Shown here in pieces: positions 7,176-56,600 of a stretch of DNA of 64,000 nt; position 1 is the first letter of the stretch, and each line of letters begins with the position of its first letter. Position numbers and translations under genes: made by a program. The DNA comes from Paracyclopina nana (Eukaryota; Arthropoda; Copepoda; Cyclopoida; Cyclopettidae): the NCBI GenBank assembly GCA_019096065.1, contig JAGUCH010000009.1, forward strand, positions 4,412,001 through 4,476,000. Direction: 5' to 3'. Below the pieces are notes generated by a model. The model made no database searches. It saw only the letters and a list, made by a program, of their open reading frames with translations, and was not told the origin of the DNA.

Positions 7176-7220
7176 GAAGACATACCTGAAATTGAGGAAG
7201 AGGAGATTGTTGACATACTA
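7176..7220 (-). other. Recursive splice site (ratchet point) at 7186|7185
   Basis: Read on the minus strand, a pyrimidine-rich tract of about 20 bases (RC of 7189-7210) ends in TTTCAG and is followed at once by GTATGTCTTC. This joins a good 3' splice site to a good 5' splice site with no exon between them. It is the last clear ratchet point in the direction of transcription, 9.5 kb after the one at 16693. It could instead be an ordinary acceptor of an unrecognised exon, but the perfectly placed GTATGT makes that less likely. Confidence 0.6.
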
Positions 7221-10200
7221 GAACTTCATCATCTCAAGAACGGCATAGTGAATATAAAGGTTTTCTCAAGGGCTTTGCAATATAGAATTCTAACTAAACT
7301 ATAGAGATTGTTTCATTCATGACCTCAGATGGAGAAACCGTTCAATTTTCGCGCATTTTTTGTTCGTCTAATTCAAAAGCTGGAATTGTGGAAAAGCCAT
7401 AAAAAATTCGACTTTTGGCACGCAACGAAAGGAGGCAGCAGAATCAATTTTAGTTATGGCAAATCCGATGCCAAAAGGCCTTTGGCATTGCTCGTTGAAG
7501 CAAGCAAAAACGTGTACTCCCAAGATATGCAGCCATATAGCTTTTTGCCAGCTTCTTGCATTCTGCTCAAAAATACTCCCAGGTTCAAATTGCTAATGCA
7601 AAAAGGGCCTCTAGAGCATAAACGGGAGCATTGCACTGTGTGGAGAATGGGCCCCAAAAGGCCCATTTGGCCCACAGTGAGTGGAAGCCCTGGATCAGCA
7701 GAAAAAATATTTTCTTTGCTTTGTTGACCATATGATATTTGATTCACTGCTAACGATGTCCACATATATATCCCAAGAGCAACATGAGTTGGTAAAGTGA
7801 TATTATTTTTCGTGGGCCCAATTTGAGTGCGCAGTGGACTGATATCACATTTCCAATTAAAAGTGGCTTTTCAATCGACCTGATGAGCTTGGAATTTATT
7901 AGATAATGCTTTTTTAGCCGGTTAGCTATATTGAGCTCAAGTCACATTTTCATCAAAAAGTTTACTTAGCCAGCTCTGCTGGTGGAACTTTTCAGATAAC
8001 TTCTTGCAGACATGACATTTTTTCAAGCTAGGTAAACATTTATGGATGCGGAAGCAATTTGCAATAAACTAAGTTTAAAATAGCCAAAGTTGACAGGAGC
8101 AAAAGTTGATCTCTTGTTTATTATTATGAAATCATCGATATAATGCAACAACAGGCTCCAAATAATTCCTATATGAAACTTTAGCATATTATGCTCAAGT
8201 TAGGGCCTGCTTATAGTAAACTTGGCCAATGCATATTCAAAAGTTGATGTAGCAGGATTTCCATATTGTGTGCTCATGTTCTCCTTTTGAATGGCCAATC
8301 CAATAATAATGCAGCATGGCCGGTACACATCTTTATTATAATGCTTTGAATTTAGTTTGCCCCAGTTTTTCCGCCAAACAGAAAGCAGCTTGAAATTTCC
8401 ATGCCTGAGACTGACGCTTTTTCCGGGACCTTTTGTTATAAATTCCCAACTCCCTTTTGTGCTCTTCCAAGCCTCGTGACAGAGACACTGATGCATGGCA
8501 ACAAATGGGCCTTATTTTGCCTCATGCAATTCCATAGCACAATTTTGCTTGGCTCTAACTGCTGCCATATGGATACTACTGAGTGCGAGGAAAGAAGACC
8601 CGTAAATACATGATTTATGCTTTACTACCATGAGAGAAATAAGGGCTTTTTGCCATTTCTTCGGCCTGCTCCTCCAACTCTTCCTCTCTCAGTTGTGTGA
8701 CCCATATAGAGATGATTGTCTGTGCTCTGAAAACTCTCAAAGTTGGACTATTACTAGTGTTTGCATTTTTTTTAGCTTGCTACGCTCATTTAGCATTCTT
8801 GTAAAAGTTGTAATTTTTTCACTTACTGTACAACTTGATAATTTTTTTTGTTTTTTTTTATTAGACCAGCCAACTCTTTTTTTGATGGTTGCACAGGTCT
8901 TCACGATGTTCCAGGGTCATGCATCCATCTGTGCACTGATTGACAAAAACTAGATATACGCACGTATGCAGTAAACAAAGTAGTATTTACAGCCAATTTT
9001 CTCCTTGGCAAGCCCATGTGCTATATGCAGCTTACGTCCTTTGAGACCCAAACCACTTTTATTAATAGTAATACACCTAATATGCAAGGCCAAATAACAA
9101 GCCAAAGCCTTGCCTCTATAGCCTTTCTTACTGCATTTGACGAGTGCTAAAAATAGAGAGCTTCAATTGCAGAATTGAGACATTTCTCCGTGAAAGTAGA
9201 CAGCTGGCAAAATACGTCACACTCGCTTAGGTAAGCCCAAAAAGGCAGCGTTTAATCTTTGCCAAAATATGACAGCAGGAGCTTTCTAAAAAAAAGCACA
9301 GTGTAAGATACGTACGGTCAGGCAGATATTCATGAGTGATTTTTCATGCACTCAAAGTTTTAGCATACATAGAAGTAGTGAGCTTATATATCTAGATAGA
9401 AAGGCACATAATAGCATTGTGGAGGAAATGTCTATACTCTACAGTGAGATGATGGGTGTTCATGTGTGAAAGGGTGAAGTAATCTGCATGTCTTGCATCC
9501 GTGCGAATCAGGACACATGGAGACTACTTTCGAGCTGCTACCAGGGATTTGGTGTCAAAATTGATGCTGCTGCTCCCTTAGAAGAGGCATCATCCATTTT
9601 TCCCTCGTGTCAAATCTAACAATGGAGAGCATGTCTAGACAGGTGTGAAACGAGTGTCATCCACCACGGCTAAAATTGGATTTTTCGACTCACTCTCAAG
9701 ATTTTTATTCGCACTGCAATTCCTCCTTTACTGCCATGTTTTCGAATCAAAGGCTCGTTTCAATTACAGATATGTATAATAGGGTGTTCATCTATGCCTC
9801 GTTTCCTTAAAATCTTACGACAGCCTTAAACGAAATGCTTAAGTTTTTGTACTTCTGATTAATCAAAACACTTCTTGCTCACATGACCAAAAGAGGTCGG
9901 AAAAGTGGTCTAATTGAAGCTATGAAAAGTCAGTAAAAATGGTCAGTTCTGAAATAGGAGGCTTAAGTAAAACGCAATTTAACGGAAGGAAAAAATTTCC
10001 TTGGTAGGTGAACACAGCATAAATCTTCAAATTGAAGCAAGCACAAATATTCTTTTTATAGCAATTTAGCGAGCCCTTTTGTGGCTGCTCACATAGCTGA
10101 AAATGCCACTTTTTACGAGCTGAATGGAATGCCTAGCATATCAAGAGAAATCATTTGATAGTTGACGACAAAGGCACGGATTTTCAGCAAGAATAGTGCT

Positions 10201-11135
10201 TATTTCATGCACGGAAAAAGAAGGAGGAAATTATTTTATTCAGTAAGCCAACACTCGTACTTTAATATTAAGCTGTAATATGGCAAAAAGTAGCACTTGG
10301 AACATTATTAAACTGCTGATATCTCATTTTTATGCCATTTGGCCATGTAGAGCTCCTTTATGCTTACTTGGCTCTCTAAGCAAGAAGTTGGGAGTGGAAA
10401 AGTTTTCATGAAACCATTCTCTTATCATGCAGCTTAACTCCTTTTTTCGTGCACTCTGAGATCTATCTTAACGACCCACAAAAAGTCCTGCATTACACAG
10501 TTATGAATAACGTAGTTTTAACTCAAAACTCTACGCTTATTTTTATTATTCACTCTTCTCCGATGATTCAAATCTCTAATAAATAGCAAACACGCCTTTC
10601 CCATTCTACGCCTATTCGGATTTGATCGCATCAGTTCAATCAAAAATGTACCACGATTTGCATAAGCTTTGGACGACCGTCTTCGTTGCTTTTGCTACTT
10701 TGGCACAGTGAGAAAATTCCTCAAGTAAAACTTCCCTTTTGTTGAGCTGAGAAGCATGCAAAATAAAAAGCTTTCTTTTCTCCCAGGGTGATGGCAAGTT
10801 GGTACATTTAGATTGCCAATTTCAGTAACTTCAAAGAATCAAGTCTACCCTAGCCCTTACCCCCCTTTTTAAAGGCTTTTGCATAGTCGACTTGGTACTT
10901 GGACTTACTTCCCCCAGGCCAACATATTCAGCATATAGTGAAGCAAGGAGGAAGGAAGTTTCAATAGAAAAATTGACCCCTTTCATCCCAGCCAAACAAC
11001 TTCCGAGCTGGGTTCTGTCCAAAAAAGCCAGATTATTTCGAAATCATGCATGCACCACCCACTTCCTCTTGTTTTAGTGCCCACGTGCTAAAACAAGCGT
11101 GTTTACCATCTTGCGGCGGAAATGTAAACAATCCA

Positions 11136-11152
11136 TCAGCTGACGCGCGCGC
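11136..11152 (+). repeat. CAGCTG-CGCG repeated motif, copy 1
   Basis: TCAGCTGACGCGCGCGC, a CpG-rich 17-mer in CpG-poor surroundings. Very similar strings occur at 23712, 25469 and, less exactly, 26376. Confidence 0.6.
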
Positions 11153-13275
11153 AAACACTCAGCCAATAAAAAAGTGTTTGCCAAAGAGAAACACTTTGAA
11201 AAAACGCTGATTTGTTTTGCACTGGGCCACAAAAGGTGGTAGTTTCACAATAGGCCCAAATTAAGCGTTGAATGGGATATGGAGCATATTTAGCATGTGA
11301 AAAATTAGAGCTCTTTGATACCTTGATTGTGCAGCATGGGTGGCCATGATTTGAAGAGTTCTTCCTAATGAAGCTGAGCCATAAAGGCCTTTGAGTCTTT
11401 TGAGGCACTCTAGGAATCCCAAGGAATCGATTAACCTCACAGCTTCATCACAGATGGACCATGAATACTGTGGACGACCCAACCCTTTCCTCTCTCTCTT
11501 ATGAGGAGCTCTGGCTGCTTATTTCGTCTTGATGAGGAGCCAAGCAAATCTTGCAGAATTCACCTCGCCCATTTTCAAGCAATTACCAGGCAATCAACCG
11601 TGGTTGGCTCTAAACTCTCTTTGTTGCTACCTTTTACCTACATGTATTGATTCAGATCAACCGACATCAAGATGAGATGTCAAATTAGGGCTGCGTCATT
11701 TTTCCAAAATTATATAGCATACAAAAAAACAGAGCTCAATCAAGAGTGATGAGAATCGAGATGGCTTTATCATTTTTGTTTCAGTTAAAACTGAGCAAAG
11801 AGCAAAACTTGCTCGTCATCGATTTTCCAAATATAACCATCATATTGAGCTTTGCAGGTGGTGTGGTGGTGACTTTTTTCAGACCAATTTTAAAAGAGAT
11901 TTTCGTAGCAGCACAAGTAGATAAAAGCAGGGAAATCAGTATAAACTGAGTAAGTTGGCTTAAAGATATCGTATTCCAATAATGTGTCAGCAAAGTGAAT
12001 TTTGGCACCAGATGTGAACCAGGGGCTTTATCGATTTTAAGTTCTGGCCATCATTGCCCATCAGGGGGATTTCACGTGATGTGTCATCGTCGTGGACGAC
12101 GACTGTTGGTAATAATAACAGAACACCAGAGGTTTCGAATTGCCACTGCCGTTGTAGTATATAGGAGTACTGCAGCAAAAACTCACCAAATCATATGAAG
12201 ATGCACCAGAGCCAATTTTGGCGCAGAACACTAAAAACAATGGCCAAATATCAAAGGATGTATTCAGTACACATAGAATTGTCACATTTTTTTGTTTGCC
12301 TACCCTCATTTTTTAAGGGAATTTTTGTTTACATGCTTGACTGTGTTCGAACCTGCTTTGAATTCAAATGCAGCTTTAAAATTCTTCATTCTCAAGCAGA
12401 CGTCTGCGTCTGGAAACTTTTTTTCCAAATGCTACCAAACATAAATGTGCTTTTAAATTAGCCCCATGTCATTTTTCTGAAGCAAAGTTGGACTAAATTT
12501 AGGGCTATAACTTTGAAGAATTTTGATATGTTTTGTTTTTAATTCTTGTTTACGTATCGATAGTGTCTCGCATATGGTACGAGTAATTTGATATCTTAAT
12601 GCTTTAAAAGCAAAAAAGCCTCATCATAATACGATTATAAAAGGCTTCTTGCACAGTGGATAAGCTCAGGCGCAAAATGGCCCCCTATACATGCTTAATA
12701 AATGCCCTCTATCTTGATATCAGAAGTTTTTATGGGCTAAATTCGTGCTGGAAATTATGACTCGTGCACGCATATCAGGCATAATGCAAAATGAAAGGTT
12801 TCTCCTCATTTGGCGAGTTTCATGCTTCAATTCCGCGATATTTATGCTAATTTGCAAGACAACCGAGTGCTAACCAGATTTAGTCGCGGCCTTCAACTTT
12901 ATTAGTCATTTCGGAGATACCATATGAGTGATAAGAGGCATAAATGGATTCTTACATGTGGATTTGCATTTGTACGTATCATCAAAAGAAGGGAAAATTG
13001 CTTCTTTTTGTGTAGAAATAGTTTGCTAATGGCCTTCCATTGCACCGTACATATTATTATAGCCTAGTTTTGAGGATTTTGACGACAGGAGGAGTTTGAA
13101 TGTTCTGCAAAGTTCCACTCTATTTCCAACTTTTGCTGGCTGCAATTTCCATTCACAGCTAGCTATATATGCAATGGTACAATGAATGAGTTTTTTGGCG
13201 TTGAAACCTTAGTACGTTTTTCCTCCCTTTTGGCCTGCGTACAGCTATAATCTTGCACCCTCTTCTGGTCTATTT

Positions 13276-13299
13276 TGCTGCTGCTGCTGCTGCTGCTGC
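13276..13299 (+). repeat. (TGC)8 microsatellite
   Basis: Eight uninterrupted TGC triplets. The frames through it give poly-Ala, Leu or Cys in a short ORF with no other coding evidence, so I treat it as a simple repeat. Confidence 0.9.
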
Positions 13300-14708
13300 C
13301 GTTTTTACACCATTTTTAAGTGTTTTTTGCAAAAAGAAGGGCGTGTGTAATCTCTCGCATGCAAAGTTGTCAAAAGCGATTTTTGCTGACAGCTTTGGAG
13401 AATTCCGCCAAAACGTATCAAGGAATTCTCAACAATAACACAGCGCCGCGCTTATATACTCAACTACTGAAGATTGACATGTGTTTAAAGGGCGTGCTGG
13501 CAAAATCCACCTCACGCCCCTTTTCCCAATGAAAACACTTCAAAAATTGCCTGAAATTTCTCAACACCTCCAAGTGGTGTGTATGTACTCACATACTTGG
13601 GAAATGTCAAAAAGACGGCCAATTTAACTTCCGAGGTCAAAAGTGTTTAATTTGGGCTAAGCTGTGGCCACTAAGAAAGGGCCATAATTTAATCTAGGGG
13701 CTAATTTGAGAGTGTATACACATAAAATGACCTGAGAAAAAAGATTGACATCAGCAAGCGTAGGTAAATGACTCATAAAAAATTCGGCCAAGACAAATTG
13801 CCATCTTCCGCCGAAATGACACTGACAGCAGCGTTTTATGGCCAAATTGCAATCAGATAGCAATGCAGCAGAAAAATGCTGGCGCGGTTTGTTTTGACAA
13901 CATTTTTCGGGCGAAAATTGAGCAAAAATTCACCAGATCACCTCAAGTGATAAAAGAGCCATGAGCAGCAGTTAAAGTGGTATTTGTTCACCTCGAGGCA
14001 AAAAGGATGTAAAAAGAGACAAAGAAGCTACTTTCTCTGCTCTGCGAGAGTGTAAAAAATCAGATTGCTCTAATAGCCCACATTACCATCAATTCGTGTG
14101 TCAATTACTGTAGAGATCGGGTTTTTGTCGATGCATCACCACACACTTGTACCTATATAGTGCATAGGATGAAAATGGCTCTTTGGCACGACTGAATGCC
14201 TAGGAAAGTGGTTTTTATATCGATCTGATCAATCGTAAGAAATGGTTATCATTCAATTCAGCAGAGCATGAAAAATCTATTTAGGTAATCTGGGAAAATC
14301 CGAGATCACAGAAGCACTCATTGTAAAAAGTTATGATCCAATATCAGGGATAATTAATGGGAAAAAATAAAGAATCAGTTACTTGCATTGGAAGTGAAGG
14401 CAAGGGCCAAATGGAAGTTAAATGCATCAATGTGTCCAATAACTTTTGCTCGAGAAAAGTTTCCAAGAGGCCTGGGTCATCGATCAGAAGCCTAACTAAC
14501 TTGGAAAATCATTTCTCAGGGCCAGGAGGAACAATAATCATAATCGGTAGTAGTCGTAATAACCAGCCATGCTCAAATTGAAACCTTCCAACTTTCTGAT
14601 CACTCCTGGGATGAGCAAAAAAGATCAACTCAGAGGTGAAAAAAGGTCTAAGGTTTCCCTTAATCAATCAAGGCTCAAAATTGATGCCCTCTGAGAAATG
14701 GAATTTTT

Positions 14709-14967
14709 GGCTGTGTTCACCTGCATTTTAAAAGGTCGATATTTTGGCCCTGTTCACCTGCATTACTATCAGCAAAATAACGCGCGATATTATGATGAAG
14801 TTTGCAAATATGTGGTATTTGTAAAATCATTTTTCAGATTTTGACGTCGGAATCGGTCTATTGGTACCAAAAGCCATCCTACACCATTATAAAAATTCTC
14901 AGTTTCTCAGTATTTCTCTCCAATATTTAGCCAAAATAACGGCCATAAAAAGCAGGTGAACAGGCCC
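14709..14967. mobile_element. MITE-like element with a duplicated left end
   Basis: GGCCCTGTTCACCTGC at 14746 is the inverted partner of GCAGGTGAACAGGCC ending at 14966, giving terminal repeats of about 16 bp on a 220-bp body. A second copy of the left terminus (GGCTGTGTTCACCTGC) lies 37 bp upstream at 14709. A clean target duplication is not evident. The CCTGTTCA core resembles the ends of the MITEs at 6492 and 28985, but the interior is different. Confidence 0.6.
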
Positions 14968-16682
14968 TTTGTTAAAAATCCACACATCTGGATTTCCTTT
15001 TGATATAGGCCTTAACATGCTATGCAAAATGGAGCATTCTAAAGTGCACCTATTAGACGTTAATTGAAAGCCCCAAATCCGAGCTTGTTATGTCTTTGCT
15101 CAACTACTAATAGGTGTGATTTGGCAATGTGGATCTCACGATGAAGTAATGGTAGGGCTTCATCTCACCTCCAGCCAACTCTGGTTATCTAGACGGGTTT
15201 TTTGCTCAGCCAAATCGCAGTATGAGGGTCAAAACGACGAGAGGAATTTCTCTGCTGAGAATCAGTCATGCGATTCAAAATTAGAAATATCATCTTGAAA
15301 TCTCCTTTTGCAAGCCGCTCGTTTTTGCCAACTTTCAGTAATTTCAGCTCATGCAATTGACCAAAACCAGCAAATTCAGCCCACTTCCATAGGATTGGAT
15401 TTTTCACATTTTGGCCAAATTCTGAGGCTATCCCATTTTTTATAAATGAACATTTTTCTCTAGAAATGCTCCAATTAATTCAGCAGAAGTAGATATCTAA
15501 AAAGAAGCCTCAACATACTTTAAAAAACATACGGTAAAAGTTGAACATTCCAAGCCAATTGCAATCCATCATAAATCCTCGATTTTTTCTGGTCATCAAC
15601 AAACAACCATCAGGAGGTGACTTCCTACATGGCTGGCCATAATCATGCTGCACTAGTTATCATTACGGTTCAAGCACCAGGATGGAAACCATTACGAAGT
15701 GAGCCCTCATGACTTATGCAATGACCAAAGCTTATCAGTCTCGTACAGGTACGAACATGAATTATGGACGGAATTTCACGTTTCCCACGAAATAATAGAC
15801 CATGCTGATGCTCTACGTTAGTAATTGCAAGGAATTTCAGGCCAGCTCAAAAACGATCAATTTTACCCCCACATTTGCCTGAATTTGCAGAAAATATCAT
15901 TTTATACACTAGGCGAAGCAAGAGATGAAACACTTTATTCCAGTAGATTTGTTTCCGTCTACCTACTTTTTTTATAGCATGACGCACTATGAGGATATTG
16001 GCATTGAAAGCACCCCTTTATTTGAGGGTTTTTTACGCCTCCCTCATCACAGTGAAGCTCTGATATGGTGAGTGCATGCCAAAAACCTCTGGCATGCAAT
16101 ATTCGAGCAAAAACTCCATTTTCTTACTGATTATTTATTTTCCTAGGGTTTTTCATTTCGGCTCAAAAAAGTGATGGCATAAACATTGAAAATTGTTTTA
16201 CTTATGCATCGATTTTTTGCTCCGCTTCAAACCTTTCAAGATTTCTCTTACTTGTCTGATTTGCCATACCCAAGCACAGCGGGGAATTGAGCGGTCAAAA
16301 CACTGAGCAGGCCGAATTTACTTTTAGCTCATGTTGCCACTGTGCTTTAGCAATCAATTGGGCTTGGTTTCTTAACTGATTCTTGCCATTCACGATTTTT
16401 TCAACCCGTCAGCATTGGTCATAAAACGCCATGCTCACGTGCTACAGTGATTTCAGTCTAAATTCGACAAAAGCACGACGCTAGCATAACTCACGTCAAT
16501 GATCATATCCTCCTTCATTGCAACTGTCATTGGACATCTAAAAATTTTGCTCTTCGCCCCCTTCAAAATTATTTCTCATAATTTTTTTACTCACAAAAAG
16601 ATCCGAAAAACATGCCATGTCTAGATGTAGTTCACCGTAGGTCACACACGACGTTTACAGAGATGCCAAATGGTGATAAAAT

Positions 16683-16722
16683 TAAGGCTTACCTGCAAAT
16701 ATCACAAAGAGAGGTAAAACAT
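16683..16722 (-). other. Recursive splice site (ratchet point) at 16693|16692
   Basis: On the minus strand the tract CCTCTCTTTGTGATATTTG leads into CAG and is followed directly by GTAAGCCTTAAT. Acceptor and donor are both near consensus and share the junction, as expected of a zero-length exon. It lies 7.9 kb after the site at 24610 and 9.5 kb before the one at 7186, counted along the minus-strand transcript. Confidence 0.62.
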
Positions 16723-19700
16723 GAAACTCTGATCGCATTTTCAAGCCTAAAAAAAATTGTAATGGCTCTTGCTGATGACTTGTAGTAGGTGTATTGCAGT
16801 AATTTATGGCTTTAATAGATCCATAAAAATGTTGTGAAATCACCCTGTTGTTGTTGGAGCTGTGGAATTACCTTGAGGGGCCCCCAAAAATTGGAATGAT
16901 GTGTCACGTCACACACACCCCACTGTAAAGGGGGAAATTGAAGAAAAAATCTGAATTAGACACACCTACCTGCACAGCCCTACAAGACGGTCATCCTAAC
17001 ATGTTTTTGCTCATCTCCTCAAGAGATCTCTCAAGTCAAGGTGATTTTCAACCTCATAGCAACGCACTTTGAAACGAAAGAAAAATTCCTCTCTCCACCC
17101 AATTTCAAATCTGCGCAAATTCTCGATTAACCGCGTAGAGCCTTCTTTTTTCAAGGCGGAGAAATCTCTTTTTTCCGTCCCTCAGACACAATTGTGACAG
17201 AAGAATTTAAAGAATATTATCTTTTTGACAGGCATTGAATTTTTTTTCAGTCATCTGCGCACGGGCGCGGGATTTTCAAAAGGGGGCCCCTCAAGTCAAA
17301 AGCCGTGGAGAATTTTGGTGAGTTGTGATTAAAAGGGGATCTTGCGTAACGAAAAACATGTCCATCTTTTATTTTTTGAAAAGGGGTGCAGCAGCAGCAG
17401 CAAACCTATTTATCACCGAATTTCCAACGTTCAACCCATTGTGCACTGACGTTCAGCTCTCAAAACATGAGTGTGAACAGAAACTTTTAATGGCCTCTTG
17501 ATGCCGCGCGCTAAACTCGCACACTGATGATATATTCACAATGGACCCACAGAAGTATTTTTGGCCAGAAAAAAAAGAATCTCACTGCGCCAACATATGT
17601 TTAGCTCATCGTAAGTGGATTAAAGAATCATTTGACATGCGTATTTAGGGGCTGAAATTGTACGCCAGGAATATCAATCATTTTGTTTTGACTGAAATTG
17701 TTTACCCCAGTTTATCACATTGGGTTCTCATGCTCGATTATCAATTTCTCCCTTGAGAGCTCACTTATTGCAATATTTCACTGGAAAAACGAGGGTTGTG
17801 TATGATCATTGAAAGAGGAGAAGGAGGGGTGAAAAATTTTCAATTCTGAGCTGCTCGAAAAGAAAACATCAACTCATAACTCTTACCTCACGACATCGCA
17901 GCATCTAGCTAAAAATGCATCATCCTTGATGCACAGGGTGTTTCTTCACAGGCAAACATACAAAAATGGGAGTTCTTTTGCAAAACCTGTGTTTCTAGGG
18001 AATAAAGGCTTATTCCTTTGCTTTTGTTGCTGACAATATTGAGGCACTCTGTAAAAAGCATTTTTAATGCCTCAGCATAATGGCTTGTCAAGAGAGCCGC
18101 CATCTTTTGTGTACTCAATGAATCGCCCTGTTTTTTTGTGGCAATGTGTATATAACTCACAATTTCTTCCTTCTTTGTGTCGCTTTTTTGAGAGCTTTCG
18201 TTGGACATTTTGTGAATCTTATCACCTTGAAGCAGCTTTTGAAACACCCTACTGCTATGCATGATAAAAACTGCCAATTTCATCAGCCTAGCTCGGCCAT
18301 CTTATTACTGCTAAAAGTGCACCAAGTGCGCCAAGCAGAGTTCATTTCTGAGCCACCCTGTGTTTTGAAAGTAACATTGACTGAGATAATCCGCCCGGAA
18401 ACTGGAATGCAATTTGCTCACCGCCGCACGTACACATGGGCAACAACGAGCGAAGAAAGAACTCTGGGGAGCAAAATACTTAATTAAATATCGCCTTTTA
18501 ATATAAAAAAGTATTCCAAGACAGAAGATCACTCTATAATTGATTCAATTTAGTTTTCATATTTATTTATTGGATGGGAAAAGTGAGTTTTAATTTGAAG
18601 CAGTTTTTGTAGGGTGGAAAAAAGCAGGTCGCCCTGAGGTGGTCAAAAAGACTGAGTGCGTATATATATCGTGCACAAAGATAGAGAAGCACATCTTTCA
18701 AGATTATCCCGACCAGACAGACAAAAGAAGCCAAATGTCAGAGTAAATCACGAAGCTCAAAAGGGAGTTTATTATTGTGACTGTGCACAGTCAAAAGGGG
18801 TAAATCCTACTAATAAAATCATAGCTAATTTATGAACAGGACTCGAGCTCTCACATATGCTCAGATTACATGGGATTTGATGGTGAGCAAGTGCAAAAAT
18901 AAACTGTTGAGCCTTAAAAATGTCTATCCCATCCAGCAGAATCTAACTCATAAAAAGGAGAGCTTTCCTACTACTAGGATTATAATTGAGAATCAGGCTA
19001 ACATGACAACAGCTGTTAGGTATTAGAGCCAAAAAAACCTGACACATCAAAGTGGTGAAAATAAACGTTCAGAGTGCGAGGAAAAAATTATCTCACCTCA
19101 AATTGCTCGCACAAATCACTGACAAAAGGTGCTACAATCGTGATGATCAAAAGAATAGCATAAATACATTCCAGTGCAGAATTCAGGTCAAAGATCAAAG
19201 AAATGATGTTTTTTGCAATAGCAGAGCTACCAGAGTCGCATTTTTTTGTGGCCATTCCAAAGTTGGGGGCCATATTTGTATAGTTGAGTAGGGGAGCATA
19301 AAAGAACTGTAATAAGAATATCATTACACATTTCATGACATGGCTTTTAAGAATTTGAAATATGAAGTCATGTCATTTAAGGTCCCAATTACACCCCAGA
19401 GAGACACTTAACGTTTATATGGCACCCTTAAAATGGCCGCCATTTGTTGCTCTCTGGCATCTAATCCTAGCAAGCATTAAAACCCGTGCATGTTTTTCCA
19501 CTGCAAATACACACTGAAAAATATGAAGCTGTAAGAGACTTTCACTCCAGTGGGCATATCGCCAGCCTGTGTATTACAAGTTGCATCAAAAGCAATTTTT
19601 GGCAGAAAGAAGGGAGAAACTGCATCAGACAGAATTTGTTATCCTTCCACAGCCAGATGACAAAAATCAAGCAGGAATGGTGAATTTTTCAAAAGTCATC

Positions 19701-19821
19701 ATCCAAGTTGCTCCTTCCCATGGGACTTTCATTAGTCCAAGTTTGGAAAGTCTCAGCTTTCATTGTTTTCGCGGAGTAATTTCAGTCCTCATTTACATTA
19801 ATTGCCTGATTATGCAAATTG

Positions 19822-19845
19822 AGCAGCAGCAGCAACAACAACAGT
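19822..19845 (+). repeat. CAG/CAA triplet run
   Basis: Four CAG-type triplets followed by CAA triplets. This gives a run of Gln in a short plus-strand frame that lacks other coding evidence. Confidence 0.7.
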
Positions 19846-20305
19846 TGATCAGGAACTGCTAAGGTGGTAAATCCTTTTGGAAGTCAGCAAGGCAACTGCT
19901 TTCTTTGTTTTCTTTAGTGCTTTCTAGAACCCCCATAGGACCACGAGCGAGTTTTGAGCACAATTTTTCGTTGTCACTTCTGCTGTTCACTCTATATGCT
20001 TCTACACTGCTGCCATTTCCTAGCTTGCTGTTGTTGCTCTGTGCAAAACTTTTTGAAGCCCATTTTTCAGCCATAATCTATCACACACGAATATACGAGG
20101 ATGGCTTGAATAGCAGCTCGATCCTCCTCCATCAATACTTTGGCTTTTCAGAATTTGCATGCTGCACGAAAATGTTTTCACAGCCTTTTTTGACTTATAT
20201 CCCCCCATAAAAGTACTTGACAAGAGAGTATCAATTTCTATATAAGCTAAGCCTAAGCTTTCTCCTCGCAAAACTTTCAGTGCATTTTTTCATCCTCTCT
20301 CTCTC

Positions 20306-20490: not shown

Positions 20491-20520
20491 ACACAATTCG
20501 TAGTATTTAGCAGCCACAAT

Positions 20521-44638: not shown

Positions 44639-45125
44639 CTTTGCGAACGAGCTGCAAGGTCGCAGGTTCAACCGCACTTTTGTCATTGTCTTGATCTGAG
44701 GCTGATGAAGAATTGGTATTTTCCTTGGCATTGCTCTTGGAGGAGTCCACAACAACACTATTGAGAGCAGTGGCACCTCTGTGCATCAAGTTGTTTTGGT
44801 AGGGCTCTTGGTACACTGGTTGAAGCAGATCATCGTCGTCCTCAAGAGCCACCACCACTCCGTGCCTATTGACACCAGTGTGTCGAGGTCGTAACTGGTG
44901 CATGGGTGACCTCTGGCTCAGCAAGGGCGAGGTCGGATGCGAGCCGTTGTTGTACAGAGTCGAGCTGTCAGCTGAGCTCAAAGATCCGTGGTGATTATTC
45001 AGCAATCGATGATTTGGAGGGGTTAAGGTCATGTCCACTTGTTGGTATCGACCTCGACCACTGGAAGTGCCCATGGCCTCAGGGCCTGTCCTGCTGCCTC
45101 GAGGCTTACCCATGCTGCATCCACA
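44639..45125 (-). CDS. Internal coding exon of a large gene, Ser/Asn/His-rich protein
   Basis: The minus-strand exon is bounded by an acceptor with tract ACTTTCCTCTTCATATTCCAG's pyrimidines (AG at 45127-45126) and a donor CGCAAAG|GTAGGA (exon ends at 44639). It is 487 bases, entering in phase 0 and leaving in phase 1. Coding starts CGCSMGKPRGSRTG; an internal ATG at 45113 has A at -3 and G at +4, so it could also be a start. From that Met there are 158 codons. The region is low-complexity and likely disordered: SSADSSTLYNN near residues 46-56, acidic EDDDDLL at 91-97, and PVYQEPYQNN at 99-108. The acidic patch with LL fits a [DE]xxxL[LI] endosomal sorting signal, so a cytoplasmic tail of a membrane protein is possible. 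I do not recognise the family. CpG is enriched relative to the flanks. Confidence 0.82.
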
Positions 45126-48100
45126 CTGGAATATGAAGAGGAAAGTGCTATTTAATATAAGCTAAAGAGGCCACCGAAAAGAGGACGGAAGCCATGCGGT
45201 CGATTACAATTTCCTCTTGGGCATTTAATATTGCCCCTTTTTATTGACATTTAGTAGTAGTATTTTAACCTTTTCCCTGCCCATTAGGACAATCAACTGA
45301 GCAGCTCAGCCTTTTTTGCTGTTGCGTTGGGCCCAAAGATACTTATAAAAGTTGTATCGCAATGTTTAGTTTGGCATTGCCCCCCGTTGTTTTTCAAAGG
45401 ATTTTCGCAGTTGTGTTTTTGTCCAACTGTTAAAAGCTATCTAATGCATTTGCTCCTTTCAGGGAACGTAGTAGATTTTCATTCAAGGCACAAAACGAGC
45501 TCAATTCCAACATGCAGCTGCATGGCCCTATTTTGGATGCTTAAGATTCAGTGCTCATGAATTGATACGTGGAAATGCATTGCCTTGGTAGTCAAGTCAA
45601 GTTGGAGTCGAGCCTCGTTTGCCTGAAAGCAAGAGTGTGATCACCCATTGTTTTCTTCTCGTTTTTCCCATTTTCAGGCCATTGCATCCTTGCAGTTTTC
45701 TACCCTTTGTTGACTAAAGTGCCAATAGGTAAAAGCTCTTTAGGAGAGCTCCAAGGGGAGTAGCAGCAGCAGTATAGCAACAAGCAGAAAAGTAGGTGAA
45801 ATAATGGGAGACACATTTAAAGCTGCTAAACTGGGCTACGACCTTTGAGCCCCCTTTCTTCACTTTGCGTCTCGAAAAAATGAAAAAGTTTGCCTTACTG
45901 ACTTGGTCTCTCTTGTTTGTCTTTCTTCAAGAATGAGCAAACCCTCATAGGACAACTTCGGCCTTTAATAATGCCTCAAAACTGAGCACTTATGAAGTTT
46001 ACATGCATAGTTAATCAAATGGTCGTGGGCTTTGCCAATTCGCCACTAGGAAAGCCAATTTGGCTGCCAAAATATTATATTGCTTGTGTAAGCAATTTTA
46101 TTGCTGCCTCACTTGCTATCGAGAGCAAATCAGAGGAAAAAAGAAACCTCTCGAAGCTGCTACTGCTGCTACAACAATTTGCCAAAATTGGGGACCGAAA
46201 AAAGGGAGCTGGAAAATTGGACGAAGGGAAAATTGTACAGCAATCTCAAAATGTATTGCAAATAAGACATCTCCTACTGGTACTTTCCGTGGAAAACTTT
46301 CCCGAAATGGTCTCTGAGCCCTCCACCCTCAAAGTTAATATATGGAATCCTTTTTATGTCTTTTTTCCTGAATAAATTGATTTCAGCCTGTTTTGTTTAC
46401 ATCAATCCTCGATGCTCTGGTAACTCGGACGTCTCAGCTGAGTATCAAAACAAACAACAAGCGTGCAGTGCATTTAGCTGGCGTCTTTTCTCAAAATCAT
46501 TCGAAGGTAAGATCTTTTAACTTTTTTTAGAAAAATTATTCGTACGGCAGAAATGACTCAATGTTTGCCCCTTACATCGATCAAGTAACCTAAGATCGCT
46601 AAACAAACAGTCCAGTACCCGAAACCTTATATGAAATGAAAAATATTGGGATTTTGCTCTCTCTCTAAAAAAGGAGATAATTCCTATGGTCAACATTGTC
46701 TTGAAACTGTATAGTATATGGTGACAAGGTTGCTCTTTTCTCAGGAGTTGGTCAGAAAAAAGTCTCTCTTTTTTCTGTCTTCTCATCTAAAAAGAAAGCC
46801 AATTCAGTTGGAGGGTAAGGGATTTCTCCCAAGGGAGGTGGAAGCACTTTACATGCCCGCCACTTTTGTTCTATTGCAAGTCTGCTAGCAGCACTGACAG
46901 CCACATTACCACTAAAACCCCAGCTCTTTTTAATTAAAGTTCTCCTCCTTTAACTCTTAAAAATTTGGGGTGGTGAGGAGCAGATTGAGCACATTTGGTG
47001 TAATTTGAACACTCATTCATATTTCTGAATATGTGTGGTGGTGGCTTTTCCCTCCATAAAAGAGAGAGTTTTTTCCCACTGTTTTGACTTGTCTAATGAA
47101 ATGGAGCAAATCTGACAAGGCCAAAAAAATCTGTGTTCCTTTTAAATGGAAAATTCTGCCTGTTTTTCTTGCTTTCACTTTGGCTTCTTTGGACAAAGAA
47201 AAATTGATCCAAATCCATCTTCACTTGTAGGGAAGAAGAAAAAGAGCTTGTGATGTGTTTCTGTTTTCCTGGCAGGAGCAAATAGATGCACAGTGGGCAA
47301 TATTTGGCATGAAAACTGTGCCACATAGAACTGCCATTTTTTGCACATTAAGCTAAGTGGCTTTTTTTGCCTTGCACAACAATACACTAGTTGGAAAAGA
47401 TTTCTTATTTTTCATGCAGATTTCCAGTCTGTCACACAGATTCGCTGTTTAAAAGCAATGTGGCAGTTTAGCACCACCCCACTGTAAAATGGCCCATCAA
47501 GAGCATTTTAAAATGATTTATGCCAAGCCTTTTTCCCTCTGCAAAAGTCTCAATTCTGCGGCATATTTGACTGGAATGCTATTTTCAAGCCGAGGCTTAA
47601 AATTAAGTGAGATTAACCAAAAATTGGTAGAAAGTTGGCTCGTACTTAAAAGTGCTTTCATTATCATAAAAAGGCCCTCGTAGTTGGGCAACAGAAAATG
47701 GGAAAATTCCTATGAAAGTAGCTGAGATGGGGCCCTAAAAGTAGCGGTCTCCTTGATACGATTTTTGGTGTGTGCAAAACTTTTTCTAGTCTCATGAAAG
47801 TCTCTAATACTACAAGAAACTTTTTCCCATTCTTATGGGTGCTCGTACTACCATAGATGTTATGTAAAGAAGAATGAAAGGAGGAGGGAAAAACTTGGAC
47901 AATATCTTTCTTCAACACCCTTGTATGGCTATCTAGTGGAGCAGCTCTTGATTAGAGCTTCTTGATTGCTCTGTAAGTTAGCCTCTTTTCTTTTTTTAAT
48001 ATCCAGAAAAAATCTGCTAATTGCCAGCTTACCAAAAATGCAACTGGAATTTGGCTGCTCTAGACTTTCTAATTATATTTTTGCTACTAATTCCAGCATC

Positions 48101-50472
48101 CTTGGCTGTTTTGCCAAGATTGGAATATCTTGGCTAGACCAAGATGCTTGTTTAGCCATTATTATTAAATTCCCGTTATGAAATATGCTAACAAGACAGT
48201 GATTGATCTAGGTGGAACTTTGCAGAGTCCCAGTAGAGCTTTCCCCTTGGCTCATGTCTGAGCTGGGCTGATATCGGCTAATTTAAGGCTTCCAAAGGAA
48301 ATATGATACTTGCTTTAGCTAGAACCACTTAAATTGTATAATTACTTCTCCAAGAGGAAAAAGCTCTTTTGCCACCTTTAAGTTTGCATTTCTCCCAAAA
48401 AAATACCCCCTACCCAGATAAGGCTCAAATGAGACAAAAGACTGAATGTGTCCCATGATGATCCCAAGAGAGCAAGTGAAGAAATGGGAAAGCTAGGGCG
48501 TGCCCCAAAACATGAAAGTAGCAATGTCTGTGTAAAGTCATGGAGTTGATCTCTTAGGTTATATTCAAATTATTTTTGCATGAATTAAAGTTAATTATTG
48601 ACTCATTAACAATTGATTATTTTGTTTCCATTACCTTACAAATTCTGAAACATAAAACTATGGTGTATTTTTCATGGTTTGAAATCAATTTAGGATCAGT
48701 TTTGTCCTAGGGGAGCAGCTTTTCTCATAAAATGGGTTATAATGCTCAAAATTGGAGCCCTCCTTTTTTGGCAGAGAGGAGCACTTTGACGTTTCGGTGC
48801 TCAACAAAAGTGGTTCAAGTGGAAACTGCGTGGTAGCAGCAGCAGCAGCCTTCGCAGCCGCCATGTTTGTTCAAATAACACTTGTATTGCCATTTATTGG
48901 CATCTGGCATCAAGACTTGTCACACAAATTCACACTTCACTGAATTTGCCCTCAATTCGTATAAATCACATTTCCCTCAAGGTTTGCCCAACCAAAACTC
49001 CATTTTTTTCACATTGCTAACACACAAACTTACATATATCGTGCGAGACTTTTTCCCCCCTTGACAAGTGTCCCAGTGTGCTTGCTGGATGTGGCTTTAG
49101 GTCAACACAAGTCAAATGCTTTAGTTCCGCATAATTTCATTATGGCCATAAATTATTTTCTCCGTTTTTTCTTCAGCTTTACAATTATCCTCCTTTTATC
49201 TACTTTTTTGCCCATGCTCAGATAAGAAATGGGAATCTGGGAAGTGATCTTTTATGTTGGAAAAAATGCATTTTTTCTGACGATGGAAAATGCTCTTTTT
49301 CTCAAGCTGCCATTAGCCTGGTAAATGTACTCTGGTTAAGCGAGGAAATTGAGCCTTGGTGGTGCATTTTGCGTGCCTGTGTCGGTGTGAAATTGTGGGC
49401 ACTTTGAGGTCAAAAGATGTGTCAATAGGTCGAATTTTGTCAAAAGTGTTCTCAGCATTTTTCTGGCATGAAACGAGGCCTCGAGATGAGGGAAATGCAT
49501 TGAAAATTGGAACTTTCTATTGAAAATAGATATGCCATTAAAAACCCACAAATAGTTGTTTTTTCAAAGATTTGTTAAACTGATTGCTTGGACATGACAT
49601 ATGTGAGTTCATTAATTTTTCCTCCTAGCTCTTCTATTCTTTTGTTACTTTTGTTCAAAGCAGAAAAGATAAATCGCAAGACTCTCTAAAGTTATTCATA
49701 TGCTAATATCATAATAGTACTTTATTCTATGAATATTGTATAGTACTACTATTCTCCAACTTCGAGTAATGGCCAAATAAAATAAACTTCATGAGATGGA
49801 GTCATTATGATAATGCCAGAAAATAAACTTTTATCATATTTGGCACTCGTGGACCAAAACGCCTGAATTACATTCTTAAGATTAGCATTTGTCATGGACA
49901 ATTTTTCCATGGCCTAGAAAAGCCAAAATTGAAGCAATTTTGTGATATGAGTTGGGTTTTCACTCAAGCCTCAGTGCAGTTGCAGTAATAATTTTGATGC
50001 TTTCGCCAGACATTTATAGCTTTTATGATGCAAGTTATAGTACGGCGAAATGGCCTAATTTTTTAGGCCAAGCAAGATCTCAATTAACCCGGAATTGCCA
50101 AGGAAGGGAAGAAGCAACCATAACAGTAAATCATCCCTCAAAAAGTTGCTCACCAAGGTAGTACAACGCATAAACTCCTTCAGTGAAAGCTGGGTCACAA
50201 CAATGAGGCACATAATTCATTAAAAAACTTGTTGACAATAGAAATCGTTGTTTGTTGTAGCTGCAGCTGACGAATTGCTTTTCCAACCCAACTTTCAGAG
50301 TGCAAATGAGACATTGTATTAATGGTTGTTGTACTGGAGTGATATTTCTTCATGATGATGGATTATGCTCGTTCTAACACGAGAAGAGCTGTTGGGGCTT
50401 TCTATCTGTCGTAGTAGCCCTAAATGTTTGGTTTTTCAGGATGAAAGGGGAAATGGGGCTTATGCACATAAT
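45126..50472. other. Intron upstream of the coding exon; no other gene supported
   Basis: The stretch begins just outside the acceptor of the exon at 44639-45125. Open frames such as 45992-46375 (plus) have no domain and no paired splice signals. Confidence 0.5.
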
Positions 50473-50683
50473 AGGCCGTTCTCATATTGCCGGAAAAAGC
50501 TAAGCTAAGGTGAAAATAGCTAAGCTAAGGTAAAAATAGCTAAGCAAACGCTCAACATTTCAAGCAAAGTAGCTGCTTTTTGTGAATGTTGAGCGAAATA
50601 ACCGGTTTTCGTTGCATAATTTTTACCTTAGCTTAGCTAATTTTACCTTAGCTTAGCTTTTTCCGGCAATATGAGAACGGCCT
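50473..50683 (+). mobile_element. 211-bp MITE, copy 1
   Basis: Inverted ends of about 38 bp begin AGGCCGTTCTCATATTGCC and continue into AAAAAGCTAAGCTAAGGT. The left arm carries a second AGCTAAGCTAAGGT unit, also present on the right arm. The centre contains another inverted pair, CGCTCAACATTC-like sequences around a short loop. It is about 97% identical to 57011-57221 (six differences by eye) in the same orientation. Flanks do not give a clear target duplication for this copy. Non-coding. Confidence 0.93.
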
Positions 50684-53600
50684 AAAGAGAGAGCAAGCAC
50701 CAGGATCTTCTTAAGAGATTAAAGACTGAGGATTCACACCGGTACATTGCACAGTTGGCAAAATGCCTCCAAAGTTTCTCACATTAACCATAATGAACCT
50801 AACATAAAAATGCCTACAGTTGCTGTGCTGTATATGTATTTCATTGGCAATACTGTGAATATCCAAAAATACTTTTTGGCCACTTTTGAACTATGCTTGG
50901 TCACTTTACATAGAAGAAAATGGCGTCTTAACGAGAGCAGAGAACCGAAGTAGGAGCTCCTAAGGGACAGAGATTCACCTCTTGGGTCATCAAGTGTTGT
51001 ACCCAGGGATTCCCTATGTCACTGTAGCAGAGGGATTGGCACAAGAGAGCATCATCATCACAATAATTCTCGAAAAAAATGGCTTAATGCCTGCTGCTGA
51101 CCTACTTGGGTTTTTGCCAGTGGACAAAAGCTCTTTTGAGACCTGCAAAAGCATTGTTTGCATTAATTGGTGTCCCTGGCAGAAAAGGCCCTTGCCTAAA
51201 ATGCATTAATTAGATCGAGCTAAAATACTGAGAAGATCAAGGCTGCATGGATTAGAGCAACAAAAAATGCAAGAGGAAGCAGTGGTATTTTCAGTTGGTG
51301 TATCCTAGTCTGGTCCCCTAGAAATCTAGTTCACTAAGGGTTGGTTCCTAAACAAGGTAAAAGCTGCTATATTTTTCAAAACGATGGCCATAAAAGCCAG
51401 CTAGAGCTATACAAAAGTAGGGCAATGTATGGTCATGAGCCTTGACTGATTGTATTGTGGCTAATGTTTCACCTCTCTTTTATGGATGATACCAGTAGCA
51501 ATCCTTTACCCATCATTGATAATGATAAGTTATTCCAGCTCAAAAGGGTAAAAACTGGTGCATATTTTTGCTGCAATACTGGGAGATGCAGCAGTTGTCT
51601 TCCAGTATGTTTGCTGAGAAAGCACACAGGGAGCCAAAAGCCCTTAAAAATGTAAACACATTCAGCAGCCTTTTTTCATTTCAGCCTCAAGAAAATTAAT
51701 TGAGGTTGCAAATGAGACACTAGTTTTTCCCCCATTGAAGCTCAGTGTGAAAGTACTATGAATGCCTTTTTGGTTTTACTGCAGAGCAACCAATAATGAT
51801 AATGTGGCAATGATGCAAGAAACCCATATGATATCTTAGCAGCTATTAAAAAGAAACAGACAGCGTTTTTTGCCAACAGTAGTATAGTGGTGCCACTTCT
51901 AGAAAAAAGACTGCTTTTATTATATTGGCCTTTCCTTTATTGGCCTTTGAGCTTGCTTTGACATGGTGACCAGATGGGTGAGCAAAAAGGTCAACAGCTA
52001 GAAAGCAAGAAAAAAGAGTGAAAATAAGCCTCCAATTTCCAGCAACTTCTGTTGAGATAAAGGCTTTTTTGGAGCTCAAGCAGACCACTGTGGATGAGGA
52101 TGAGTGGGTATACAAAAAAGTAGCTATCTCCCTTTCAATTGGAGCAGAATAGACAACCCATCCCATAAAGAGAGAGAGAAAAAAGAGATTTCCACAGCAT
52201 GGAGGTATAGCCATCAAAGTGATCCCCATATAGCTTGGATTAGATTTGGCAACAAAAATACTACAGAAAAAATCATTTAGGCTATAGGATTCCTTCTACC
52301 ACATATGAGTTGTGAAAATTGATTAATTGCATTGAAAGCCTTCAACAGCAAAGTATATGGGAAAAAATCCTTTTATGTGACCACTTGGCTCTTTTCAGGA
52401 TGAAAATACATTCATTAATCAAGCATTTCTGCTCTTGACTCTGCTTTGCCAGTAAAAAATGATTGTCCCATTGTATAGGGGAAAAGGCAAATGGCTCTCA
52501 CTCACTATTACTTCTATGGTACAAGCTTCAGGATTTGCATCTCAGTGAGCATATCAGTATGCCAAAGGAGGTGGCATATTTCCTGGCCACCATTATTGAA
52601 CATGTCAACCACTTGATGTCTTCTCAAGAGGTGCTGTTACCTCTAAAAGAGCATCATCACATGGGGTTAATTAGTCCCCAAAACATCCCAGCCTTTAAAA
52701 TGAAGCTTGGAACCCAATTCTAGCTTGTATTGTGCCACCTTCAAAACCATGAATTTGCTTACTTTACTTTTTGCCTGGAATGCAATGTTTGCTCTTCTTG
52801 GTCAGAATCTGGCCACTTTTGGACCAACTCCCCCTTCTTCTTACAGTATAGACATGATGATCATTATTCTGCACCTTGAGATTAGAGCTTAAAGGGGACA
52901 CATTCAAGTGTGCAAAAGGGGGGGAAATGGCCAGTATTATCGAGTTGAGTGACTGATTGGTGGGGGAATGATGCAGCTACAGAAGACAATCATTCATTGA
53001 AAGATGTGCTTCACTATGGACAACACCTCGTTATTCACATTACAAGATAAGGAGAAAGCTCTGCTGGCCTGTCATCTTCAATTTGCTCAACTTGGACATT
53101 TTATAGCTGGGCTTTTCCTTCTCTCTCTAACTAGCTCAAAAGGCTCGAAATCTGCTGGTTATTCAAAAATTACTCTTAGCATTTTTATGCAGTTGTAAAC
53201 ATTTCCTTGTGGCCCCCAATGTAATGCTGCTGCTAATCCCAAATTGGAAATGGGATTTTTGCTGTTTTCATGAGTTCGCATCGAGTGATTTATCTCTGGA
53301 CCCTCCTGTGAAAAATCCCATTAGGACATGATGAAGGCGAGGCAGAAAATACAATCTCATTTTTCTGTTCTTGTCCTGAAGGCCAAGATATGTCCCATCA
53401 TCGTTCAGATCAAAACTCATTGGCATGATCCCCAAGAGGTTGGACATTGGAACGCGTGCTCTGAATTGAAAGACAAGATCTACCATGATAGATGTGATCA
53501 ATGTATTTGGAAGCTTTCCTATTACTTCCACCATGCCATGGGGAGAAGATGACATAACAGAAATCTTTCCACAAGCCTACAAAACAGTTTCGAAAATGAG

Positions 53601-56600
53601 ATATAGCAGTTAAGTTGTGCTGTCAATAAAATCCTCTCGTATACTTTATCTACATGGCTTGGAGTAATACTCGATCCCTGACTTCAGTCATGCATGAAAT
53701 CCAAGCTTACAGAAATGGGTATATTCAAGCCACCACAGTATAGTAGTATATGCACTGGATGTCGCAAATATGGAGTTTGTGTGGATCGCATTCAAAGGGC
53801 CACAAAAAGATAGCAAAACATTTCCATTTCTCTCTCTTTTTATGAGTAGACTTGCTGATGCAAAATGCCTCAGTTCAAAAGCTCATGCTTTTTGTTTATT
53901 ACCAGGTTAACAGAAACGTCATCACTTCAGCAATGAAAGGTGTTGCTTTCACTCTTGACCTTGGGCATAATTTCCCCTGAAAGTTTCTATACACATAACC
54001 AAAATAAATAGGTCCTGATTGTTGGTCGTTAGCAGAGGCTTTTTTCTTGTTACAAATAGAAAAGGCTTAGCCATGCTAGCCTTCTTTCAATGTAACACAG
54101 TGGGGTGTAAAAAGTATGCTCTGTAAAAATCACATTTTCCGTGAGTTCATCAATTTTTCTGCAGCGCTGATTTTTTTCATAAATTCAGTCAAAATTTTCC
54201 TACTGAGCTTTTTGACTTGATGTGGTGCTGAAATGACTGGTTGAGCCCAGATGTAAATGAAGCTGGTGTAATTATATCCATTAGTCTTGGCATTCTCTCA
54301 AGTCAACCCTTGCTCCTCTCTTCTTCTTCTGTTCTACTGAGTATAATATAGCTCTTGTGTACTGAAGCTGTGCATCACCATTGATCTCAGGATTGCACTT
54401 TGGGGGGAAAAAGGAAATAAACAAAACCCCTCAAAAAAGGCTCACAACCTTTAAGCTTTCCCCAAATAACCTTCTTCAAGCAAGGTCAAGCTTTGCCTAT
54501 AGGCAATTTCTAGTAGCTTTTTCTTCTGTCTACTTGTCTCACTGTGCTTCTTAGCAGCAGCAAAAGTTTACAAATGATCATGTTGTTCTCCATGTGCTGA
54601 GTTTTTGACATCATTACAGCAAGAGTAATTGATCTATCAAGAGAAAGCCCAAAATTTGCTAAGGACAGCTGGGAATTCCAGCATTTACCTAATCCAACTT
54701 TCTGCATGTAAATTCTTGCATTTTTGGATGTCAGACACATTTGTGTTGCAGCAGCAGTAATTATGGAATCTGAGACCAAGTTGGATCTTCCCCATTACAG
54801 CCATTATTTCTTAAGTCTAGTTGCTGCAGTATTAGCTATAGTTGGGGGTGGATTTGCTCCCAAAGCTGATATTGAGAGAAAATGATGACAGTAACATGTT
54901 GCAAGACATAAGGGCTAAAGCTAGGGAGAAAAGCCAATCATTTCTAGCTTCTTTTGGGTGTCTGGTTTCAATTAACCACATATTAGAGCAATTCCAGAAT
55001 ATGTGGATGTGTGGGAAAAGGCTAACTTCATCTCATAAAAGTTGGCTGCTTTTGAGATTGATGCCAATTAATGAGGTAGTGGTATTGATCCAAAGATGAT
55101 CATCTTGTTTGGCTGCCATTCTATAGTATAACTTAACCCTTTTAGAAAGCTGTCAATATGGCGGCACAAGAGACGTGACCCTTTATCCCAATGAGATGGT
55201 CGACAGCCTCCTCACAAACAATGTCATTTCGTTGTAACCAAATGGATCACCTGCTGTGCCTTGACGTCAATCAAAAAGCTTTCACCAGAGGCACTGATGC
55301 GGTTTGATGTAGTTACTCAACTCCCAAGGGAAATCACCCTTTTTAGGCCTGTGTCAAAAAACCGCTACTGGGTATGTAGTAAAATCAATTATTTTATTGT
55401 CCTTAAGGGAAAAATGAGAGGATTCTTTTGAGGGTGGAGCTTTCACCAAATATGCAATTTTCAAACCAGGATATTGAGGCTAATGCCCTTCAAAGATTAT
55501 GTAAATAAAGATCCAGATTGACGAAAAAAGGGAATGCTTAGCATATCGGCACGTTGGGTAAAATCATCACACAAAATAAGCCCTCAGTTAGAAACTGTAC
55601 TTTAAGTACATTTTCCTCTATTTTGGAGACTGCAAATTCTTTTAGCTAGTATAATTGGTGAAAGCTGAAAGAACCACAGTGCTTTGGCACAAAAGGGATC
55701 GAGCTTCTTCTTCCCACCAAACAAACTAATGATGTTCCTGTCGAGATAGTAAAAAATCGATGGTGCACGATAATATACTACATCAGCCATACACAAAGCA
55801 GCACAGTGGAATTCTGCTACTTATTATTCTCTGGGGTCCAATTTTATATCTTCTAGGGTCGCGGGGTCCATGACCCTGTGATTCTTCTAATGATACTCAA
55901 TATAAGAAAGCCAATGATCCCAATACACTTCCACTATGCTAGGAATGGCAGATGTCAGCATTAATCCTCACTGACATGTCTGATTTAAGATGCACAACTT
56001 CACTTTATTACTTTTTTCCTAAACTCGTATAGAGGCCTTCAAAGTTTCCCCATCTTCAGCGAAAAAAGGCTCGCGCATGATTTTGACCTAATTTTTGCCT
56101 AAAATGGTTTTGTTGCAGTATCATGGCAGCCAACTTTTCTACATTATGTCCTTCATAACTGACGACAGAATCCTGCCAAAAGACGGATGGCAGCTGGATA
56201 GATGGATAGAGAAGCACAAAAGTTTGCCGCAGAATTTTAGCATAGCGGGCTGTCGTCATATTCAAAAAAGTCGTCAAAACCAAAAGGCTAACATGATAAT
56301 TAGAAAACGACCTCGAAATCTGCGCTCGACCTGATCGTGACAACTGGTAACATACCTGCAAAAGACAGAAGAAAGCAAAATTGTATTATTGAACTTCCCA
56401 AGGGACTTCCATGCCACGCGTAGCTTCCCTTATACATGTAGTAGAATACTGCTATATAAGGGAACCTCCCTATCCTAGTATAGTATGTGATATACGCATA
56501 TATTCCTCTGTGACACATTACGAATTAGCTTTTTTTACTACAACATTCAATTTTCTGGCCGAGGTCTTAGAAGGAGGGAAAATGTGCATAACTTTCTCCA

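Follow-up and report, generated by a model that had tools for sequence, protein, structure and literature searches.

The stretch analyzed here, 64,000 nucleotides of a Paracyclopina nana contig (C9:4412001-4476000, hereafter the window, in a genome of 91.95 Mb and 10 contigs), covers parts of two very long introns of a minus-strand gene that homology identifies as the copepod teneurin-m (Ten-m). Seven sites in these introns, five of them inside the window, fuse a strong splice acceptor directly to a donor, and it is very probable that they represent intronic ratchet points, i.e. zero-nucleotide recursive splice sites. Their score, strand, clustering, and spacing, together with the gene context, fit recursive splicing, which is therefore the best reading and supports the same proposal made in a preliminary description of the window. 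This suggests that copepods may also excise the giant Ten-m intron stepwise, as does the fruit fly with its own teneurin-m.

Fused acceptor-donor sites in the Ten-m introns

Every AG/GT in the window (the slash marks the splice junction) was given a joint score, combining an acceptor matrix (18 bases) and a donor matrix (intron side), both weight matrices being fly-like approximations. Among the 345 AG/GT present (189 plus, 156 minus), five minus-strand junctions rank at the top, with 15.9, 13.6, 12.0, 10.2, and 8.6 bits, while the sixth-ranked reaches 3.8 bits and the highest on the plus strand 2.9. These are exactly the five sites that the preliminary description had pointed out, with the G of the acceptor AG at 56356, 35601, 24610, 16693, and 7186; in each case the donor G occupies the next lower position (Table 1). 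Its claim that the plus strand contains no good fused site is likewise confirmed by scoring, as the top five are all minus and no plus-strand site exceeds 2.9 bits. Strand bias had also been put forward as evidence: all strong sites are indeed on the minus strand, but this is not independent evidence, because they all sit in one gene.

Simulation with minus-strand-trained Markov models, 40 sequences for each of the orders 1, 3, and 5, yields on average 0.1, 0.125, and 0.2 sites of at least 8 bits per 64 kb, against five in the window, and the best single simulated site scores 12.0 bits (order 5). When 200 kb to the left of the window were added to the analysis, after the five sites were known, two extra strong intronic sites turned up there. 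The seven Ten-m sites (15.9-8.6 bits) outrank all others in the sequence examined, the best outside the gene reaching 8.2, 8.0, and 7.7 bits. A matrix-free rule, defined after the sites had been seen and applied to 304 kb ([CT]AG/GT[AG][AT]G[CT] with at least 11 pyrimidines in 16), finds seven sites on the minus strand and none on the plus strand of the 97-kb teneurin intron region, and three in the remaining 206.5 kb; with a cut-off of 10 there are five outside, and with a cut-off of 13 six in the intron region and none outside.

A similar picture comes from the association of the two halves, with thresholds for strong AGs and good donors again set after the sites were seen. In the 67-kb intron downstream of exon A, a good donor follows six of 97 strong sense AGs versus nine of 3,986 weak ones (Fisher p=6e-7), and none of 81 strong antisense AGs. 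In a 28.9-kb stretch upstream, the corresponding figures are one of 28 versus four of 1,819 (p=0.07), and none of 34 in antisense. Genome-wide, a strict motif ending in GTRAGY has 14 matches in 91.95 Mb, four of which fall within the 67-kb intron (binomial p=3e-10 for at least four). A looser GTRAGY motif has 33, including the same four, and no other pair lies within 200 kb of each other. A GTATGY version has 12 matches, none of them in the teneurin gene; it misses the two GTATGT sites of Ten-m because both have a purine in the tract.

After exon A, the ladder runs through window positions 35600, 24609, 16692, 7185, -7356, and -12189 before reaching exon B, i.e. six sites and steps of 9.0, 11.0, 7.9, 9.5, 14.5, 4.8, and 10.3 kb (mean 9.6, coefficient of variation 0.31). 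Random placement is as even in 0.23% of 200,000 trials (p=0.002). The even spacing noted in the preliminary description therefore stands as a departure from randomness, but the full ladder is less even than its window part; its roughly 10-kb steps agree with the mean, but the two sites beyond the window bring in one step of 14.5 and one of 4.8 kb. The seventh fused site, at 56355, is the single one in the upstream intron, and the sole minus-strand fused site of at least 2 bits across window positions 45000 to 92228.

Like ratchet points, these sites fuse a strong acceptor to a strong donor, lie within a very long intron on their own strand, and delimit even pieces of roughly 9-15 kb, one step being 4.8 kb. 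From this we infer that they are used in splicing. The spliceosome would join exon A, or the alternative exon A' described below, to the first downstream ratchet acceptor; the junction would rebuild a donor, because the following intron bases start with GTRAGY or GTATGT, and the rebuilt donor would be spliced to the next site, and onward to exon B. Removal of the 67-kb intron would thus take about seven lariats, and that of the 56-kb intron of the A' isoform about six, each of 5-15 kb, the mRNA gaining no nucleotides from the ratchet steps, and the upstream intron, in the 5' untranslated region (5'UTR), would involve one such step.

Table 1. Exons, introns, and candidate ratchet points of the Ten-m locus (window positions unless a C9 coordinate is given; a slash marks the splice junction)
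Feature	Position	Strand	Details
Exon A, Ten-m N-terminal cytoplasmic region	44639..45125	-	acceptor TTCATATTCCAG/; ATG at 45113; donor AAAG/GTAGGA, phase 1
Exon A', coding part	33554..33614	-	MTSSKAEIETDWRYTPVPTL + 1 nt; donor CTAA/GTAAGT, phase 1
Exon B, next coding exon found	C9:4389300-4389539	-	continues exon A in phase 1; 22 kb past window
67,099-bp intron	C9:4389540-4456638 (window -22460 to 44638; window part 1..44638)	-	phases 1 and 1
Upstream intron, window part	45126..64000	-	acceptor at 45126
Ratchet-point candidate, upstream (5'UTR) intron	56350..56375	-	CTTTCTTCTGTCTTTTGCAG/GTATGT; 12.0 bits
Ratchet-point candidate 1, 67-kb intron	35595..35620	-	CTTTTCTCTCTTTTTTGCAG/GTGAGT; 15.9 bits, rank 1/345
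Ratchet-point candidate 2, 67-kb intron	24604..24629	-	TTTTATTTTCCTCTTTCCAG/GTAAGC; 13.6 bits; 1 of 14 strict-motif matches in 92 Mb
Ratchet-point candidate 3, 67-kb intron	16687..16712	-	TCTCTTTGTGATATTTGCAG/GTAAGC; 8.6 bits; weakest pyrimidine tract
Ratchet-point candidate 4, 67-kb intron	7180..7205	-	CTCCTCTTCCTCAATTTCAG/GTATGT; 10.2 bits
Ratchet-point candidate outside window	C9:4404644 (window -7356)	-	TTTTTTCCAG/GTAAGT
Ratchet-point candidate outside window	C9:4399811 (window -12189)	-	CTCTTTCAG/GTGAGT
Nearest long coding-like frame right of window	75007-76116 (C9:4487007-4488116)		right flank

Gene identity, exon structure, and neighbouring features

Searches of Pfam, PDB, and Rfam with the exon or the window gave no match, and the identity of the gene came from its flanks. 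Minus-strand exons to the left of the window encode a teneurin, with a transmembrane exon between these and the window, and the domain order is galactose-binding-like, EGF repeats, TTR, FN-plug, NHL, YD-shell, and C-terminal GHH; a scan of seven downstream exon pieces recovered every one of these domains. Among solved structures, the YD-shell exon matches fly Teneurin-m best (417 bits), no vertebrate teneurin exceeding 182 bits, and the best of 66 matches to a long query is isoform X2 of the teneurin-m of the salmon louse, a copepod. Further named relatives of the gene come from Tigriopus and the salmon louse, and a 158-aa query from exon A retrieves 32 homologues, one of them labelled Oithona nana. 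Likeness to fly Ten-m amounts to 0.76 bits per residue, versus 0.53 for a paralogous piece at C9:3718035-3719240, an approximate comparison as it involves different segments. Judged by these matches, the gene is a Ten-m orthologue whose nearest relatives are in copepods. More teneurin-like YD-shell matches occur in the genome at C9:3718035-3719716 (minus), C6:2986244-2987701 (plus), and C9:997031-997870 (minus), and by homology the genome carries at least one second teneurin gene.

The acceptor of exon A scores 8.2 bits. A set of 36 homologous proteins gave 35 alignments against the protein of exons A-D, of which 17 stop precisely at the exon A donor (residue 159), four go 5 to 11 residues past it, and 11 stop earlier. 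The other three extend to the transmembrane exon (residue 346) and start between residues 154 and 207, where exon A ends or past it. The salmon louse Ten-m becomes alignable from the first whole codon of exon B; this start of homology and the matching phase of exon B define the intron of 67,099 bp. The sizes of at least 37 kb and at least 19 kb given in the preliminary description remain valid as lower bounds for the two introns, but the downstream one is really 67.1 kb long. A minus-strand codon scan of this intron detected no strong-signal coding exon, the exceptions being a minisatellite and, next to exon A', a weak stretch (9.1 units); as it did not report exon A' itself (61 nt), other short coding exons could have escaped it.

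Exon A', which is absent from the preliminary description, lies inside the 67-kb intron, with ratchet candidate 1 (35601) on one side and candidate 2 (24610) on the other. The joined sequence of A' and exon B reads VPTLSSVLDSGNSYTSGRHASL, a near letter-for-letter match to the start of salmon louse Ten-m X2 (VPTLSSVLDTGNSYTSGRHASL), and Ten-m therefore appears to carry two alternative first coding exons. In the A' isoform the intron measures 56,014 bp and contains five of the six ratchet candidates. A TCAGT at 33960-33956 (minus), about 346 bp upstream of the A' ATG, resembles an arthropod initiator, so that the segment separating ratchet sites 1 and 2 may hold a second promoter.

Several other features were observed in and around the window. 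A minisatellite at 20521-21301, with 41 copies of a 19-bp GC-rich unit (GTGCGGGAGACGCTGCCGG), opens long spurious frames on both strands. Two places, 50493-50658 and 57032-57196, hold 20-bp tandem units (CTTAGCTTAGCTA-like) that are paired and inverted, perhaps the ends of a small mobile element. A near-identical pyrimidine-rich stretch (TCATAAGACAATTTTTCTCC...) stands beside AG/GT at window 29035 (minus), window 6848 (plus), and C9:4235407 (plus); by its recurrence it is a dispersed repeat that brings an acceptor-like sequence with a poor donor. To the left of the teneurin gene, very long open frames of 673 to 2,185 aa at C9:4344364-4358520 and 4366809-4376706 may be transposon genes.

Weighing recursive splicing against other explanations

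The alternative that survives best invokes unannotated cassette or poison exons that start with GT, the sites being their acceptors and the donor half going unused. Such exons would account for the strong acceptors, and weak-to-moderate donors are in fact found 36 nt past 35600 (2.6 bits), 180 nt past 7185 (3.9 bits), and 198 nt past 16692 (3.0 bits). However, the codon score of the first 90 nt, a test blind to very short or non-coding exons, is negative in every frame at all seven sites, whereas the best frame is positive for eight of eight ordinary exon starts. Moreover, the donor half attains 2.3-5.0 bits at all seven sites, and plain exon starts need none. We therefore regard this explanation as unlikely.

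Splice signals brought by transposable elements, tolerated and unused, are a still less probable origin. Dispersed-repeat segments do occur in the 1-kb flanks of three of the seven sites, and a ~490-bp repeat at C9:4399811, which bears an inverted repeat close to its end, finishes 14 nt short of the junction and may therefore touch the pyrimidine tract. Yet none of the seven junctions is covered by a repeat match, the seven 1-kb flanks are mutually dissimilar, and the 300 bp around 35600 match only themselves in a genome search that leaves out very common words. Of all sources, chance matching within a long, pyrimidine-rich intron is the least credible: the matrices are approximate and several tests were defined after the sites had been seen, but a null of 0.1-0.2 sites of 8 bits per strand faces five in the window, two more sites lay in sequence added later, and the matrix-free count in the introns of the gene is seven to zero.

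Some observations nevertheless weigh against recursive splicing. No enrichment of donors of recursive splicing exons (RS-exons) is seen 15-200 nt past the seven sites, where scores average 0.68 bits against 0.46 (p=0.40). The steps of 14.5 and 4.8 kb depart from strict evenness, the pyrimidine tract at 16693 is weak, and two of the seven donors are GTATGT instead of GTRAGY. The fused sites are stronger than the ordinary ones of the gene model (median acceptor/donor score 9.7/3.7 against 3.8/-0.6 bits; 12 acceptors, 13 donors), but this comparison is biased, since the fused sites had been selected on their scores and not every boundary of the model is verified. The silence at the seven sites of an exon-shape test, which looks for an open frame ending in a donor of at least 3 bits within 250 nt, means little alone, since the test recognised only three of eight ordinary exons. 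Finally, genome-wide counts give no clear excess of fused sites outside teneurin (29 with GT, vs 18 for a GC exon-start control and ~27 expected by base composition), and the near-control of the strict motif, CAGCT, has 11 matches vs 14.

These pattern counts were each paired with a backward-pattern control, given here in square brackets: strict GTRAGY 14 [3], CACGT 1 [8], CAGCT 11 [5], GTATGY 12 [2], looser GTRAGY 33 [13], and looser GCRAGY 18 [9]. A one-mismatch search (191 [101]) was left out of clustering. The complete lists of strict GTRAGY, GTATGY, and looser GTRAGY matches contain none near the second teneurin (C9:3.72 Mb). Among the 29 looser matches outside Ten-m, the first-90-nt codon score is positive in four (L041, L045, L051, L053) and negative in 25, and the exon-shape test, which found only three of eight true exons, flags L041 and, weakly, L057. 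Of the ten strict matches outside Ten-m, four (L026, L028, L030, L032) have, within 1.5 kb, a segment whose coding signal exceeds that of ordinary introns, the one of L032 being due to a simple repeat. The other six (L027, L029, L031, L033, L034, L035) have no such segment within that distance on either strand, and are possible lone ratchet points of other long introns. As the fused-site counts show no clear excess over their controls, we do not claim these six, or ratchet points across the genome, as such.

Comparison with known recursive splicing

Recursive splicing was first found in Drosophila genes, and has since been documented in mice and humans, according to a 2026 review (PMC13149111). 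In mammals (human, PMC6110456; mouse, PMC8797253), as proposed here, long introns are removed stepwise; recursive splicing has been called rare in mouse brain (PMC8797253), and a preprint describes it as extensive in humans (PMC13105047). Our literature search found no precedent for recursive splicing in copepods or crustaceans, and a wider arthropod search, a weak one, none among the matches listed. The search gave no paper that joins the terms recursive splicing and teneurin, and the passages on Ten-m that it brought up concern the fly.

The closest parallel is intron 1 of Drosophila Ten-m, for which five recursive sites were found with nascent RNA (Pai et al. 2018, PMC6110457), and whose RP1 and RP2 also appear in separate work on nascent RNA (PMC8906543). 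As in the fly (PMC6110457), the copepod gene has several AG/GT ratchet motifs in one giant 5' intron, and the copepod ladder agrees with that of the fly in gene, 5' location, motif, and step size. The five fly sites have as counterparts six candidates in the long copepod isoform and five in the A' isoform, and the recursive segments of flies in general average 9.1 kb, introns being typically cut into 9-15 kb pieces (PMC6110457), against 9.6 kb in copepod Ten-m. At least one high-confidence recursive site is present in 63% of fly introns of more than 40 kb (PMC6110457). The support differs, as the fly sites come from nascent RNA, RT-PCR, and sequencing (PMC6110457) and the copepod sites are known from sequence alone. 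Drosophila ratchet points with cryptic RS-exons also juxtapose a strong acceptor and donor in long introns (Joseph et al. 2021, PMC8605326), but there a short RS-exon comes next and supplies a donor of its own (PMC8605326), whereas the copepod sites have no such donor enrichment. In some insect Ten-m (Periplaneta), a sequence resembling the end of exon A is followed by SLLDS, a hint only, as a multiple alignment places these residues elsewhere.

We tentatively propose, as an idea that is somewhat less probable than its negation, that recursion in the giant Ten-m 5' intron is an ancestral pancrustacean trait, kept in flies and copepods with segments of ~9-10 kb, and that the copepod ladder serves two first exons and works without RS-exons. 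Such retention would span on the order of 500 million years. If so, the requirement to remove a Ten-m intron stepwise would be deeply conserved. With so strong a ladder in the copepod orthologue of a fly gene known for recursive splicing, the age and the purpose of this process can be tested through the comparison of a single gene across arthropods.

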